A DNA stretch of 64,000 bases from positions 186,001-250,000 of IMG/VR virus record IMGVR_UViG_3300032562_000003, one strand, 5' to 3'. A program made the translations under genes and the position numbers. The stretch is from a virus. The notes below the pieces were generated by a model that was given only the letters and a program-made list of their open reading frames with translations, made no database searches and was not told the DNA's origin. This document shows positions 2,552 through 48,453 of this stretch, piece after piece (position 1 is the first letter of the stretch; every line of letters starts with the position of its first letter).

Positions 2552-3336
2552 TGCGTGTAGCACTATGCATAAGTGGTCAGCCGAGGACATGGAAAAAGAC
2601 ATATTCAAATTGGATAGAACATTTGTTACCTAATGTAGAGAAAGATATTTTCTTTCATCTATGGGATTATAATACTTTACCTACGATAGTATTACAGTCT
2701 GGTGTCCGTTCCCTCAAAGACGTACATATCACTGAAGAAGAAAAACAAGATATCATAGATACATATCAGCCAAAGAAATACAAGTTTGATAATAGAAATG
2801 TCAATCCAACACTGTTCGACAAAGATCCTAGTATACTAACTGAGTATGTGAATAATCCGATAGGATGGTGGTGTAGAAGCCAGTATTATAGTATATATTA
2901 TGCTGCTAATCTAAAACGACAATATGAGATCGAACACAACTTCGAATATGATGTTGTGTTTAGGATGCGGACTGATCTATACTTCATGGAAAATCTAAAC
3001 ATGCCCCGTGAAGTTCGTCCCAACTGTTTATATTCTAAGAGCAACGGATACGTGGATAATGTAGAATCATTTATGATCGGTGACACGTTTCATTTTGCTG
3101 ATAGCTATACGTATGACCAAGCAGCAGAATTTATTCATTCATTGCAGTTTATCGATAGTAATCATGTGGTGCCCCCGCACATACAATGTCCCCCGCCGGC
3201 GCCGGAAGTTGCACTATATCCTTTTTTATGTGCTAGTGGAATAAAAAACGTCAGTTGTCCTCAGAGTATAAAGATATTGAGAAGCCAAGAATATCTTGAT
3301 ATCAAGAAAGAGTTAGCATCATATGAAGTCATATAA
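2551..3336 (+). CDS. glycosyltransferase-like protein, copy 1 of 3
   Basis: A 261-residue protein beginning MRVALCISGQPRTW. I chose ATG 2551 because it overlaps the upstream TGA and aligns with the starts of the two paralogues that follow; an in-frame ATG at 2536 is less likely. The ALCxSGxPRTW opening, the HLWDY segment and the later YDVVFRMRTDLYF segment recur in all three tandem copies (2551, 3323, 4186). These features resemble a family of phage and capsule-locus proteins with a GT-A-like fold, where RxRxD would stand at the nucleotide-sugar site. Transferase activity is inferred from fold-like motifs and context only. Confidence 0.6.
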   Translation: MRVALCISGQPRTWKKTYSNWIEHLLPNVEKDIFFHLWDYNTLPTIVLQSGVRSLKDVHITEEEKQDIIDTYQPKKYKFDNRNVNPTLFDKDPSILTEYVNNPIGWWCRSQYYSIYYAANLKRQYEIEHNFEYDVVFRMRTDLYFMENLNMPREVRPNCLYSKSNGYVDNVESFMIGDTFHFADSYTYDQAAEFIHSLQFIDSNHVVPPHIQCPPPAPEVALYPFLCASGIKNVSCPQSIKILRSQEYLDIKKELASYEVI

Positions 3337-4189
3337 AATAGCAGTGTGTCTGAGCGGAGAGCCTCGCACATGGAACCATTGTAGCGAGAATATACTTGAA
3401 TTTTTCAAGAGTGATATCCATGACATAAAGTTTTTTGGACACACGTGGACAGACAGTGAATACACGAAAGAACATAGATTTTATGGTATAGAGAAATGTG
3501 AATCTTATCCTAAGGACGAGCTATACCAGAATATGATATCAGCTATAAACTACGAAAAATTATTGATCGAAGATAAAACTGTAATCGATGTCACTCCGAT
3601 ACCAAGCGTATTAAGTTTTGATGAATGTACTTTTGGTATGAAAGTAGCAGCTAACCTAGCTAAACCTACAGTATACGTTCACATGAGCTACAGTATCATG
3701 CAGGCTAACTGGCTCAAAACTATGTATGAAATAGAAAATGACATGCGTTTTGATCTAGTTGTCAGAGCAAGGCATGATAGTTATTATACACCGGGTACAA
3801 AGTTTGAGGATTACTTACCAGGTAGAATAGAACCAACTGCAATATATGGTTCGACAAATACATTCCCGATGGAATATTGGCAGAATCATTTTACTGATGT
3901 GTTATTCTTCGGTTCAAGTAGGGTGATGAATACTGTTTGTGATTTTTATAGATACTATAGTACAGGTAAATTCTGGGAATTATTAGATGCTAACTGGAAT
4001 GATCCTTATATAAAAATATGCGGATATAATGTCTGCTTATATAAATGGCTTATGCTAAAGAATATAAGAGTACAAGAAACAAACCTAATATTTAACACTT
4101 ATATATTTAGGAAAAAGGCAGCAGAATTGTATAGTTTACCGCAAGACGCAGATGCAATACTACAAGTAGAAAGAAATCTATTCAGATGA
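3323..4189 (+). CDS. glycosyltransferase-like protein, copy 2 of 3
   Basis: A 288-residue paralogue of the preceding gene: AVCLSGEPRTWNHC at the N-terminus and WLKTMYEIENDMRFDLVVRARHD in the middle align with copy 1 and with the broken copy 3. It overlaps the upstream gene by 14 bp, and its stop overlaps the ATG of the next gene (ATGA), so the three are translationally coupled. The sequences have diverged strongly, which suggests old duplications with different acceptor specificities rather than recent amplification. No signal peptide or membrane segment is seen, so the protein is presumably cytoplasmic. Confidence 0.6.
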   Translation: MKSYKIAVCLSGEPRTWNHCSENILEFFKSDIHDIKFFGHTWTDSEYTKEHRFYGIEKCESYPKDELYQNMISAINYEKLLIEDKTVIDVTPIPSVLSFDECTFGMKVAANLAKPTVYVHMSYSIMQANWLKTMYEIENDMRFDLVVRARHDSYYTPGTKFEDYLPGRIEPTAIYGSTNTFPMEYWQNHFTDVLFFGSSRVMNTVCDFYRYYSTGKFWELLDANWNDPYIKICGYNVCLYKWLMLKNIRVQETNLIFNTYIFRKKAAELYSLPQDADAILQVERNLFR

Positions 4190-13345: not shown

Positions 13346-13367
13346 AATGCTAGAAGGAGCTATCAGC

Positions 13368-14030
13368 ATGTCTATTTATCGTAAAATTTACGAACAGAAT
13401 TTTGGTCCCATACCCAAAGACGGTGACGGAAGAAGTTGCGATGTTCATCATATAGATGGTAACCGCAATAATAATGTACCGGAAAATTTAATCGCATTGT
13501 CTATACAAGATCATTACGATATTCATTATCAGCAAGGAGATTATGGTGCATGTTGGCTCATTTCAAGAAAGCTACGGTTGACGCCAGAGGAACTATCAGA
13601 CCTCGCCAAATTAACCGGCGCCAACCGCATCGCAAACGGCACACATCACTTTTTAAAAAGGCCAGATGGGTCATCGTTAGGAAAAGACAGTGTACTCAGA
13701 CAAACTGAAAACGGGACGAATGCTTTCTCTGGAGGAGAAGTTCAAAGAAAATCTAACGCTAAGCGAGTGAGGGAAGGAACTCACCATTTTCTTAGTGGTG
13801 ATATACAAAGAAGAACTCAACAAAGGTTGGTGGAGAACGGGACTCATCATTTAATGGGGAACGGAGAATTTCAACGAAATGTTCAGAAAACATTGTTAGA
13901 GAATGGAACTCACCACTTTCTTACGAATCATCCAAATAAAATTCAGGTAACTTGTCCGCATTGCAACAAAACTGGCGGAAAAACTAACATGCATCGATAC
14001 CATTTCGATAAGTGTAGGGTCTTAAAATAA
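13368..14030 (+). CDS. HNH homing endonuclease with NGTHHF repeats
   Basis: About 220 residues from ATG 13368, chosen because of the AGAAGGAGC ribosome site upstream. The N-terminal HNH core is RSCDVHHIDGNRNNNVPENLIAL, which has the HH...N...N/H geometry of free-standing phage endonucleases. The middle repeats NGTHHFL-type units five times (a DNA-binding module), and a C-terminal CPHCNKTGG...HRYHFDKC motif is a zinc finger. It is a diverged paralogue of the minus-strand gene at 23482-24126. Such enzymes nick or cut intronless alleles of nearby genes and spread by homing; the target here is probably next to the carbamoyltransferase or the repeat-protein gene. Confidence 0.85.
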   Translation: MSIYRKIYEQNFGPIPKDGDGRSCDVHHIDGNRNNNVPENLIALSIQDHYDIHYQQGDYGACWLISRKLRLTPEELSDLAKLTGANRIANGTHHFLKRPDGSSLGKDSVLRQTENGTNAFSGGEVQRKSNAKRVREGTHHFLSGDIQRRTQQRLVENGTHHLMGNGEFQRNVQKTLLENGTHHFLTNHPNKIQVTCPHCNKTGGKTNMHRYHFDKCRVLK

Positions 14031-23257: not shown

Positions 23258-23495
23258 CGACATTAACATAAATCAGTGGTTCATGGACCGAGAATTAAGT
23301 CATACCCCTGAACATTTTATAAGATCAAGCACTCCTTTTACTATCGAGTCGCGCATGTGGATTTTGGAAAGCCTTCAAGGCAGATTTTCTACACATTACC
23401 CCAACACATCGACCTATATTATGAATAGAATAGCACTTTGTCCATCGTTTGAAGATCCACAAGAAGCAGTGTTTTACGAACTCAAGTGGGGCTAG
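23244..23495 (+). CDS. small W-ending family protein
   Basis: About 83 residues from GTG 23244 (alternative ATG 23199). The C-terminus FEDPQEAVFYELKWG belongs to a family spread through this window (26615, 50719, 50988, 51179, 51397, 51693) whose members all end in an acidic residue, a few hydrophobics and an F/W-x-L-R/K-W tail. The function is unknown. It ends convergently with the minus-strand HNH gene, overlapping it by 14 bp. Confidence 0.5.
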   Translation: MKTIDDININQWFMDRELSHTPEHFIRSSTPFTIESRMWILESLQGRFSTHYPNTSTYIMNRIALCPSFEDPQEAVFYELKWG

Positions 23496-24126
23496 GTCTT
23501 ACTAGTTCCCACCCTCCAGTAGCGTTAAGTCCTTTGTTATTTACAATACGACTAATTGCACCGGACTTGAGATTATAACATGTCCTTAATTGATAATTCG
23601 TCATTGATACTACCTCCCCGGTCATACGATTTTTCCAAGTTCTAACAGTATGGTCATACTGCGGATGTTTTTCTTTTTTCTTGGGGTCATTAACAAAATG
23701 ATGAGTCCCGGCAGCAAGTCTGTTTAATTGTCGTTTACTGGCAGCTTCCCTGTCCAACCAATTATGTGTTCCATTAAGAATGCGGTCTCTGTTTAGTTGC
23801 GCTTGGTGCTTGTTGGGCCCAACCCAAGGATGCTTGCCCGTTTTAACTAGCTTGTTAGCATTTTTTGTTGCGAGGGCTACTAGCTCATCGGGAAGTAAGT
23901 TGATCCTACTTGACATTTTTACACAAGCTGCCCAATCACCCTGTGAATAATGAATGTTGTAATGTTCTTGTATAGATACACATTTCAAGTTAGCAGGATT
24001 ATTATTGGAATGATTTCCGTCTATATGATGTATTTCATATGACCGACCCGACTCTTCCTTAGGAATTGGACCGTAGTGATGTTCATAGATATTACGGTAC
24101 TTGTTTGTACCACAATAAATACACAT
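23482..24126 (-). CDS. HNH homing endonuclease, inverted copy
   Basis: A 214-residue paralogue of the gene at 13368. The N-terminus IYEHHYGPIPKEESGRSYEI is followed by the HNH core HHIDGNHSNNNPANL and QEHYNIHYSQGDWAACV, which align with the other copy. It shares NGTHNWL/AGTHHFV repeats, and its C-terminal part (TWKNRMTGEVVSM then a helix-turn-helix-like stretch) is a NUMOD-type DNA-binding module. It is one of only two minus-strand genes in the window and points against its neighbours, which fits a recent insertion. Its leader carries the same hairpin and late promoter as the 13368 copy. Confidence 0.85.
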   Translation of the reverse strand: MCIYCGTNKYRNIYEHHYGPIPKEESGRSYEIHHIDGNHSNNNPANLKCVSIQEHYNIHYSQGDWAACVKMSSRINLLPDELVALATKNANKLVKTGKHPWVGPNKHQAQLNRDRILNGTHNWLDREAASKRQLNRLAAGTHHFVNDPKKKEKHPQYDHTVRTWKNRMTGEVVSMTNYQLRTCYNLKSGAISRIVNNKGLNATGGWELVRPSPT

Positions 24127-45671: not shown

Positions 45672-46697
45672 TTGAAAACAGCAACAATAGAAATTAAGGA
45701 CGAAGTAAACGTTAAAATTTTAGGACTTGAGTTAGATGTAAGGCGCGCTCTCATGAAAAAATTTGAGTACGAGAAGCCCGGTGCCAGATATCAACCAGCA
45801 GTTCGATTGGGTAGATGGAATGGTAAGATCAGCTATTTTTCTTTAGCAGGGAGTACCTATCTAAATCTACTGGATGAAATCATTCCGATACTAATCGATT
45901 ACGGCTATGACATAGTACTAGACGACAAGAGAAAAAATCACTTAGACCTAAAGTTTGACCTGATAAACGAGAATACTTTTGCTAACATATGCTGGCCCGC
46001 CGGACATGAACGTGAAGGTCAACCTATAATTCTGCGTGATTATCAAGTGGAAATCGTCAATAACTTTTTAGCCAATCCACAGTCACTTCAAGAAATAGCA
46101 ACAGGCGCTGGCAAGACATTAATGACAGCCGCATTGTCTAAAAGTATTGAGCCATATGGTCGATCTATCGTAGTTGTTCCCAACAAGTCGTTGGTAGTAC
46201 AAACCGAAGCAGATTACAAAAATCTTCAACTTGAGGTAGGCGTGTACTTTGGTGATCGAAAGGATTACGGTAAAACACATACCATCTGTACATGGCAATC
46301 ACTGAACAATTTGCTCAAGGTTAAAGCTGAACAAGATCCTAACAAGGATCCTGATATGGAAGACTTTTTCTTTGATGATGTTGTTTGTGTCATGGTTGAT
46401 GAATGTTTTCACGGAGAATCAGTGGTGCTAACCCCGGTTGGATATGTACCCATCAAGGACATTAAAGCCGGAGATAAAGTAATCAATTATTGTGAACAGT
46501 CCGGAACCTTCAAGGAAGATACAGTGGTAAAACAACAGCACAATCTTACTGTGTCGTCCACTGAAAAAATGTATGAGATGGAATTTGATAACGGACGTGT
46601 AATTAGGGTTACTGGAAATCATCAATTTCTAACAAATCTAGGCTGGTGCCGGGCTGACGAACTTACTGAAAATCACGAAATAGTAAATAAAACATAA
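45672..46697 (+). CDS. uvsW: UvsW helicase N-part fused to N-half of a split intein
   Basis: Starts at TTG 45672 (CAAGGA upstream). The first 244 residues are the N-terminal part of UvsW: LQEIATGAGKTLMTAAL is helicase motif I and VVCVMVDE the start of motif II. The DECH box is interrupted after VDE. The remaining 97 residues (46404-46694) are an intein N-half: block A CFHGESVVLTPVGYVPIKD with Cys1, and block B VIRVTGNHQFLTNLGW with the conserved TxxH. The frame stops at 46695-46697. Joined to the product of 47617-48453 it restores VMVDE-CHMAKADVL and a helicase of about 487 residues, near T4 UvsW (503). Confidence 0.9.
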   Translation: MKTATIEIKDEVNVKILGLELDVRRALMKKFEYEKPGARYQPAVRLGRWNGKISYFSLAGSTYLNLLDEIIPILIDYGYDIVLDDKRKNHLDLKFDLINENTFANICWPAGHEREGQPIILRDYQVEIVNNFLANPQSLQEIATGAGKTLMTAALSKSIEPYGRSIVVVPNKSLVVQTEADYKNLQLEVGVYFGDRKDYGKTHTICTWQSLNNLLKVKAEQDPNKDPDMEDFFFDDVVCVMVDECFHGESVVLTPVGYVPIKDIKAGDKVINYCEQSGTFKEDTVVKQQHNLTVSSTEKMYEMEFDNGRVIRVTGNHQFLTNLGWCRADELTENHEIVNKT

Positions 46698-46726
46698 ATA
46701 CATATGGCTAAGGCAGGAGTATTCAT
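46694..46726 (+). promoter_or_regulatory. late promoter in a hairpin controlling the intein-borne endonuclease
   Basis: ATAAATAC (46694-46701) pairs with GTATTCAT (46719-46726; 7 of 8 bp), placing AGGAG (46715-46719) and ATG 46725 in the stem region. The stop codon of the N-intein is part of the promoter. RNA started at about 46706 lacks the 5' arm. Confidence 0.6.
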
Positions 46727-47645
46727 GAAAATTACATATGAACAATGGAAAGATCGGTTAAACAAGCGACTAGCAGAACATAACCAACAGGTAAGGGTCG
46801 TTACTTTTGGAAAATCAACACTAGAATTATCAACCGGCGAGATATTAATACAGCCCGAGTTTAATAATTTTAAAAAGAGGGTAATGAATTCCAAGACTGA
46901 TCTTTGGGTGAAGAATATGGATTTGCTTCTATCCGGATTAATATCTGATCGGGAAGTCAAGGCTAAGCTTGCTGCAATTGGTGGCGAAGCCGTTCATAAA
47001 TTACATCCTGAACTTAGTAGTCGCAATTTAAATACAGGTGTGCCGTGGAATAAAGGGAAAACAGGACTACAAACTTCTTGGGCGAAGGGTTTGACTAAAC
47101 AAACCGACAGTCGGGTTGCTGCTAGAGTAAATAGCGGGGAAGCAAACGGTATGTATGGTGTAAAAATGTCTGACCAGGATAAAAAATTCCGATCGGATAT
47201 AATGAAGGATAAAATTTTATATGGAGACTTTACCCCAAATTCCAACAATAGAAACACGCACTGGGAAGCAACGTTTAACAGAAAGAAATATAGATCGAGT
47301 TGGGAAGCGTTGTTTCAGTATATGTATCAGGATGCAGCGTATGAAACATTGAGATTAGAATACATTATCAACGGTAATCGAAAAATATACATAGTTGATT
47401 TTGTTGATTATAAAACCAAACAGGTAGTAGAAGTGAAGCCGACGGAGTTATGCCGAGGTAAGATATTTGACGCAAAAATGGTTGCCCTTAAAGAGTGGGC
47501 AGATCAAAATGGGTTTAGTGTCATTGTCGCAACACGGGAATGGCTATTGAATAATAGCTGCCCTTCCGACCTCTCTGGATTTGATGAAAAAACCGCAACA
47601 AAGATAAGGAAGTTATATGAAGCTAATAAGAAAAACCGAAATTGA
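46725..47645 (+). CDS. Vsr-like (EDxHD-type) homing endonuclease between intein halves
   Basis: About 306 residues from ATG 46725, chosen for the AGGAG ribosome site; ATG 46704 in the same frame is the alternative. An N-terminal DNA-binding part with NUMOD-like repeats (NTGVPWNKGKTGLQTSWAKG, GEANGMYGVKMSDQDKKF) is followed by a PD-(D/E)xK-type catalytic part: THWEATFNRKKYRSSWEALF, IYIVDFVDYKTKQVVEVKP, then WADQNGF. This matches the Vsr-like homing endonucleases described between split-intein halves in fractured phage genes. It overlaps the C-intein gene by 29 bp. It would cut intein-free uvsW alleles. Confidence 0.85.
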   Translation: MKITYEQWKDRLNKRLAEHNQQVRVVTFGKSTLELSTGEILIQPEFNNFKKRVMNSKTDLWVKNMDLLLSGLISDREVKAKLAAIGGEAVHKLHPELSSRNLNTGVPWNKGKTGLQTSWAKGLTKQTDSRVAARVNSGEANGMYGVKMSDQDKKFRSDIMKDKILYGDFTPNSNNRNTHWEATFNRKKYRSSWEALFQYMYQDAAYETLRLEYIINGNRKIYIVDFVDYKTKQVVEVKPTELCRGKIFDAKMVALKEWADQNGFSVIVATREWLLNNSCPSDLSGFDEKTATKIRKLYEANKKNRN

Positions 47646-48453
47646 TAAACCTGACGAAGTGTTCAATCTCCACATTGAAAATGATCATAATTACATAGTT
47701 GACGGTGCAGTAGTATCCAACTGTCACATGGCAAAAGCTGATGTTCTCAAGCAAATGCTTACTGGGGTATTCGCTGATGTTCCTATTCGCTGGGGATTAA
47801 CCGGTACCATACCTAAAGCCGAAATGGATCGCGCTTCGATTCTAGTATCTCTTGGGCCAGTCATCGGGAAGTTAGCAGCAAGTGAGCTACAAGATCGAGG
47901 TGTTCTTGCAAGTTGTCACGTTAACATAGTGCAGCTTAAAGATACTTCGGAGTTTACAAACTATCAAAGCGAGTTAAAGTTTCTACTAGAGGACGGCCAT
48001 CGTTTAGACAAAATCGCTGATCTTGTACGAGCCGTCAATAAAACAGGCAACACATTGGTTTTGGTTGATAGAGTAAATGCAGGTAAAGAACTAGTCAGCA
48101 GACTACAAAATTCAGTGTTTGTTAATGGTGGAACAAAACTAACAGAACGCAAAGAAGAATACGATGAGGTTGCGATCAGTGATGATAAGATAATTGTAGC
48201 TACATATGGTGTTGCGGCTGTGGGCATCAACATTCCTCGAATCTTTAATTTGGTTCTCATCGAACCAGGCAAATCATTTGTACGAGTTATACAGAGCATT
48301 GGTCGTGGCATAAGAAAAGCAGAAGACAAAGACCACGTGCAGATTTGGGACGTTACTAGTACGTGTAAGTTTGCAAAGAGGCATTTAACCCAGCGTAAGG
48401 CTTTTTATAAAGAGGCTAAATATCCCTTTACTATAGAGAAACTGGATTACTAA
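47617..48453 (+). CDS. uvsW: C-half of split intein fused to UvsW helicase C-part
   Basis: The first 35 residues are an intein C-half: EVFNLHIENDHNYIVDGAVV then SN, with block F and the terminal Asn; the next residue is the +1 Cys of CHMAKADVL. The following 243 residues are the helicase C-part: WGLTGTIPKAEMDRA, the motif III to IV region, and GVAAVGINIPRIFNLV then VIQSIGRGIRKAE, which is motif VI. Splicing in trans with the product at 45672 is required for a working DECH box. The start ATG lies inside the endonuclease gene (29-bp overlap), so its translation is coupled to the endonuclease. Confidence 0.9.
   Translation: MKLIRKTEIDKPDEVFNLHIENDHNYIVDGAVVSNCHMAKADVLKQMLTGVFADVPIRWGLTGTIPKAEMDRASILVSLGPVIGKLAASELQDRGVLASCHVNIVQLKDTSEFTNYQSELKFLLEDGHRLDKIADLVRAVNKTGNTLVLVDRVNAGKELVSRLQNSVFVNGGTKLTERKEEYDEVAISDDKIIVATYGVAAVGINIPRIFNLVLIEPGKSFVRVIQSIGRGIRKAEDKDHVQIWDVTSTCKFAKRHLTQRKAFYKEAKYPFTIEKLDY

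Follow-up and report, generated by a model that had tools for sequence, protein, structure and literature searches.

The window analysed here comprises 64,000 nucleotides, corresponding to positions 186001-250000 of the 258,859-base virus record IMGVR_UViG_3300032562_000003, a possibly incomplete genome of a giant phage. In this window the helicase gene uvsW is, as read from its sequence, broken by a canonical class-1 split intein between the Glu of helicase motif II and the Cys that follows it (Cys+1), with an endonuclease gene placed between the two halves. The element is very probably a trans-splicing, homing fractured gene, and its endonuclease gene is preceded by a late-promoter-like motif and a leader resembling the presumed homing site, which is rather likely to act as an autorepressor operator.

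All parts of the locus lie on the plus strand. A first open reading frame (ORF) with a TTG start (45672-46697, stop codon 46695-46697) encodes the UvsW N-extein (45672-46403; 244 residues, ResIII/UvsW_N, Walker A motif GAGKT, C-terminal end VMVDE) fused to the intein N-half (46404-46697; 97 residues), with Cys1 in codon 46404-46406 and TGNH as block B. The endonuclease gene follows (46725-47645; 306 residues, with an alternative ATG at 46704), and its 3' end overlaps by 29 nucleotides a last ORF (47617-48453) that encodes the intein C-half (47617-47721; 35 residues, ending in DGAVVSN) and the UvsW C-extein (47722-48453; 243 residues, Helicase_C), which begins with Cys+1 as CHMAKADVL. A Shine-Dalgarno-like ATAAGGAAG within the endonuclease gene (47604-47612) would, from its sequence, serve this last ORF. 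The helicase and intein parts were identified by Pfam (where Hint and Intein_splicing are matched), PHROGs and NCBIfam. The intein N-half matches TIGR01445 (intein_Nterm) with an E-value of 4.3e-10 and 40.5 bits (NCBIfam curated cut-off 24.5), and the C-half matches TIGR01443 (intein_Cterm) with 21.6 bits (curated cut-off 15.6). Furthermore, a profile of the intein N-half finds the split inteins gp41-1 (E 3e-6) and NrdJ-1 (E 7e-6). The features of a class-1 split intein were all found, namely N- and C-motifs on separate ORFs, Cys1, a TxxH block and an N|C junction, and the split position is canonical (97/35 residues); the penultimate intein residue, Ser in the window and Ala in others where His is usual, counts against the predicted splicing. 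A conserved gene, a split intein and an endonuclease ORF between the halves, the components of a fractured gene, are present together. The placing of a split intein inside motif II of uvsW with an endonuclease gene between its halves, as proposed in an initial annotation, was thus confirmed by the ORFs, by NCBIfam and by the same insertion codon in relatives.

According to the predicted mechanism, the UvsW-N/intein-N and intein-C/UvsW-C polypeptides would be translated separately and then trans-splice into a UvsW of 487 residues (244+243) with DECH as motif II, containing ...VMVDECHMAKADVL.... The search of the whole 258,859-base record for an uninterrupted uvsW, a check which the initial annotation had called for, found neither such a gene nor a second copy, each UvsW half being present once, and it is a reasonable inference that helicase activity would depend fully on trans-splicing. 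That the halves instead remain unspliced, either with the UvsW pieces associating non-covalently, as the pieces of the split NrdA of phage Aeh1 do (PMC2988022), or with a dead uvsW, is highly improbable. Both intein halves are intact and under purifying selection, even where the endonuclease gene has been lost, and the helicase motifs are intact on both sides of the break. Between the window allele and its relative L003, ratios of nonsynonymous to synonymous substitution (dN/dS) of 0.18 for the intein N-half, 0.15 for the endonuclease and 0 for the intein C-half indicate purifying selection on the parts of the element; synonymous divergence in the exteins of this pair is saturated.

Relatives were collected from IMG/VR and from phage isolates, and in 200 loci both intein halves were found to occupy the motif II site. 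These represent 59 distinct alleles, including those of Salmonella phage S16 and Proteus phage PM2, of which 47 are split with an endonuclease gene, 10 are split without an intact one, and 2 are contiguous mini-inteins. Several endonuclease-less alleles retain the 3' end of the gene and are therefore deletion derivatives, and two of the ten (L299 and L359) carry a full-length endonuclease gene that is apparently damaged or strongly diverged. The contiguous mini-inteins, found in L355 (match 3184-3501) and L366 (match 3501-3821), have no endonuclease gene. In an intein tree with no outgroup root and moderate support, endonuclease loss is scattered and both contiguous forms sit among split alleles; this nesting suggests that a fractured gene may be re-fused, a reading favoured, with moderate support, over an ancestral contiguous state.

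The comparison of these alleles also bears on motif II itself. Cys occupies position +1 in every intein allele (36/36 distinct alleles; 58/58 readable ones in the larger set), whereas among 64 distinct uninterrupted relatives, two of which are mis-scored inteins, this residue is Val in 55 (DEVH) and Ala in 3. The nearest empty alleles carry DEVH, and Cys was found in uninterrupted uvsW only in distant isolates, namely T4, Atu_ph07 and a Vibrio phage (DECH), and 121Q (DECQ). As the spliced product carries DECH and the relatives mostly carry DEVH, the Cys comes with the element, which thereby alters motif II. Splicing had initially been expected to restore DECH: the product is indeed DECH, but this Cys is imposed by the element. 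The site had also been proposed as new, and the same split ORFs already exist in S16, in PM2 and in the PHROGs families phrog_16259 and phrog_9690, although they are not labelled there as inteins, the two families bearing only the label 'DNA helicase'. In the library of papers that was searched, none combined 'split intein' and 'UvsW'. The kind of element is known, and its uvsW site and operator-like leader appear to be undescribed.

Regarding the endonuclease, the sequences of its family indicate that it is a TnsA-like PD-(D/E)xK enzyme with NUMOD3. PF08722 was matched in 15/18 aligned members (best 6e-9) and NUMOD3 in 10/18 (best 4e-8), the window endonuclease by itself matching neither; E194, E207, D225 and E236 are invariant and K238 (as E236-x-K238) is nearly so. 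An AlphaFold (AF2) model reached a predicted local distance difference test score (pLDDT) of 82; a Foldseek search with this model returned nothing at E<=0.001, its best and weak matches being RecE, TnsA and I-Bth0305I, and a profile search of the PDB with the endonuclease alignment gave no match. The enzyme had previously been called Vsr-like, an identity which was rejected: no Vsr match was found in Pfam or NCBIfam, the invariant D225 and E236 with K238 are present instead, and the Foldseek match to the Vsr-type I-Bth0305I is weak (E 0.5). This description fits only a different endonuclease, found at the Walker A motif in relatives. The best 80 relatives of the window endonuclease all lie within fractured uvsW genes.

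Homing is further suggested by the unequal divergence of the element and its host gene. At fourfold degenerate sites, the window allele and L003 show identities of 0.30/0.31 in the exteins versus 0.75 in the intein N-half, 0.64 in the endonuclease and 0.64 in the intein C-half, and L189 and L191 show 0.33/0.45 in the exteins versus 0.92/0.83 in the element. Along the locus, nucleotide identity between the window and L003 is 0.80-0.95 over 46472-47771, whereas the uvsW DNA on either side mostly shows 0.62-0.81, and the intein N-half of the window is 61% identical to that of S16, with exteins only 24-26% identical. The higher identity of intein and endonuclease indicates that both move together, and joint transfer among host genes that have diverged is what characterizes a homing element. 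Cleavage of the empty site is putative, as read from these sequences: the NUMOD3/TnsA-like endonuclease would cut empty DEVH alleles in co-infecting phages, and repair would then copy the intein halves, the endonuclease gene and the Cys+1 codon together.

The start of the endonuclease gene displays an unusual organization. A T4-late-promoter-like CATAAATA (46693-46700) overlaps the intein-N stop codon and is followed by a 27-nucleotide leader (46701-46727) that includes the ribosome-binding site and whose final codon is the endonuclease ATG. The late-promoter form in this phage is NATAAATA, mostly CATAAATA: ATAAATA occurs in the window 15 times on the plus strand versus 4 on the minus strand, and lies in the 70 nucleotides upstream of 11 gene starts versus about 1.2 expected, while TATAAATA shows no enrichment in the window; the genome also encodes a T4 gp55-like sigma factor (E 1e-5). 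The leader, CATATGGCTAAGGCAGGAGTATTCATG, is identical at 18/27 positions to CACATGGCAAAAGCTGATGTTCTCAAG, the C-extein DNA past the Cys codon (47725-47751) that forms the right half of the presumed homing site. Among relatives, ATAA[AG]TA precedes the endonuclease gene in 35/36 distinct alleles, and leaders match their own extein at a mean of 16.8/27 positions in exact register, versus 7.4 ± 1.4 at other offsets (next best 12.1). Own exteins match better than those of other loci (permutation p 1.5e-4), and the translations of leader and extein vary together where exteins are unusual (HSAKADAL/HSAKADAL in L011, HRAAADVL/HCAAADVF in L255, HMVK/HMIK in L258). The layout is that of I-TevI, the ORF being preceded by a late promoter at which a homing-site-like operator candidate lies; the homing site is presumed from the insertion site. 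A dedicated CATAAATA promoter would drive late transcription of the endonuclease gene, whose product would bind the 27-nucleotide mimic just downstream of this promoter and repress itself, as I-TevI does.

Several observations weigh against this regulatory role. The alleles are related, so that per-locus p-values are not independent, which applies to the permutation p as well; in a gapped local-alignment test p<=0.05 was reached in just 16/35 leaders (p=0.059 in the window); the mimic does not track the extein at wobble positions (0.34 identity); no such leader was found in S16, PM2 or T4-like terminase cases, in the last because the endonuclease gene overlaps the intein-N ORF; and the mimic partly overlaps a T4-type ribosome-binding site, which makes its last 13 nucleotides weaker evidence. 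This overlap raises the possibility that the likeness arises incidentally from a T4-type late promoter and ribosome-binding site, I-TevI itself beginning ...AAAGAGGTATTTATG and part of the mimic being such a site. We regard this explanation as improbable, since the 14 nucleotides outside the ribosome-binding site still match at 9.8/14 versus 3.8 ± 1.0 elsewhere, other late-promoter-like sites in the window match the extein at a mean of only 7.1/27 (maximum 13), and L011 departs from the ribosome-binding consensus in favour of its own extein, which it matches at 22/27. Chance and the ribosome-binding site were both tested as sources of the likeness and proved insufficient.

The chief rival holds that the mimic is a non-regulatory fossil, left by an endonuclease gene that formerly lay just past the motif II codons and took some of them into the intein. 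In keeping with descent from coding DNA, the mimic often shares the reading frame of the endonuclease gene, and its match is closest at the first two codon positions (0.75/0.78 versus 0.34). A fossil would, however, be expected to decay, and the third positions of the leader are conserved among alleles that encode endonucleases with, for the most part, 39-53% identity to that of the window, while extein wobble positions vary. The leader also lies nearly always directly 3' of ATAAATA, and an equivalent leader precedes the gene of a second, unrelated endonuclease. These points make the fossil explanation doubtful, and favour the autorepressor operator.

That second endonuclease belongs to another break of the same gene. 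At least six distinct related uvsW genes (L091/L093/L297, L206/L263/L309, L219/L318, L222, L224/L315 and L260/L327) are fractured twice, the additional break falling in Walker A (GAGK|C...HHN|T), where a short-N split intein is accompanied by the gene for a Vsr-like endonuclease, so that the breaks at Walker A and motif II divide UvsW into three pieces. In L093 (1763-5185), as in L206, L219, L222, L224 and L260, the middle polypeptide consists of an intein C-half, about 95 residues of UvsW and an intein N-half. The leaders of the Walker A endonucleases, located behind ATAA[AG]TA or a similar motif, resemble their own P-loop site, as in L264, with ATTACAACAGGAGCAGGGAAA in the leader versus ATTGCAACAGGTGCTGGTAAA at the P-loop; in the gapped local-alignment test p<=0.05 was reached in 6/11 loci. 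In L258 (1-1899), a large contiguous intein that apparently includes an endonuclease domain occupies Walker A (...FVVTHN|T) and shares the ORF that terminates in the motif II split-intein N-half. We give an even chance to a wider proposal: that endonucleases of split inteins autorepress, two unrelated families at two uvsW sites having each gained a late promoter and a mimic of their own homing site, convergently with I-TevI, in a gene fracturable twice whose three polypeptides would be joined by two different split inteins.

Other mobile elements were observed in the same phage. A portal-like protein (L176; G000:C1:135107-135400, minus strand) contains a contiguous intein with an HNH-like insert, and the window carries two HNH-like free-standing endonuclease ORFs (13347-14030, plus strand; 23482-24126, minus strand), the latter running opposite to the surrounding genes.

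Taken together, these findings would add a catalytic helicase motif to the known sites of fractured genes, where a parasite changes a motif II residue of the host enzyme from Val to Cys. The natural series of alleles (with endonuclease gene, without it, contiguous and empty) shows how genes break and possibly heal, and three-piece proteins made via two split inteins would occur naturally. Moreover, the leader suggests how the endonucleases of split-intein elements may be regulated, a mechanism open to direct test, and the alleles constitute a catalogue of natural split inteins useful for protein engineering.

Among known systems, the short-N atypical split inteins, which we take to be of the AceL-TerL type, also accompany endonuclease genes, both at UvsW Walker A in relatives and in T4-like terminase (IYIDE|C); in contrast, the intein of the window is split canonically (97/35). 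In L179, L180 and L182, a short-N split intein interrupts the T4-like terminase large subunit after IYIDE|C and is accompanied by the gene of a related TnsA-like endonuclease; the site again lies directly past a Walker B-type DE. The uvsW loci of S16 and PM2, annotated merely as two helicases and a hypothetical protein, share the site, the split, DECH upon splicing and an endonuclease akin to that of the window (identity 28% along the full protein and 36% along some 200 residues), but these are T4-like phages with distant exteins (24-27%). Dassa and co-workers reportedly described, in 2009, genes fractured by split inteins whose halves are separated by endonuclease genes. The present locus resembles these phage genes in that a conserved gene is interrupted by a split intein and a free-standing endonuclease gene lies between the halves, and differs in being uvsW interrupted at motif II, in its TnsA-like rather than Vsr-like endonuclease, in the late promoter and mimic, in the loss of the endonuclease gene and in the two contiguous forms. 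With I-TevI, which autorepresses in T4 td (Edgell et al. 2004, reviewed in PMC2988022), it shares a late promoter placed ahead of the endonuclease ORF, next to or overlapping a homing-site-like sequence, although I-TevI is a GIY-YIG enzyme of a group I intron, whereas here a TnsA-like enzyme resides in a split intein and repression is putative. The published match of the I-TevI operator to its homing site is 15/20 (PMC2988022), and in the same kind of test as applied here this proven operator, used as a positive control, scored 15/27 or 13/20, no better than the mimic.
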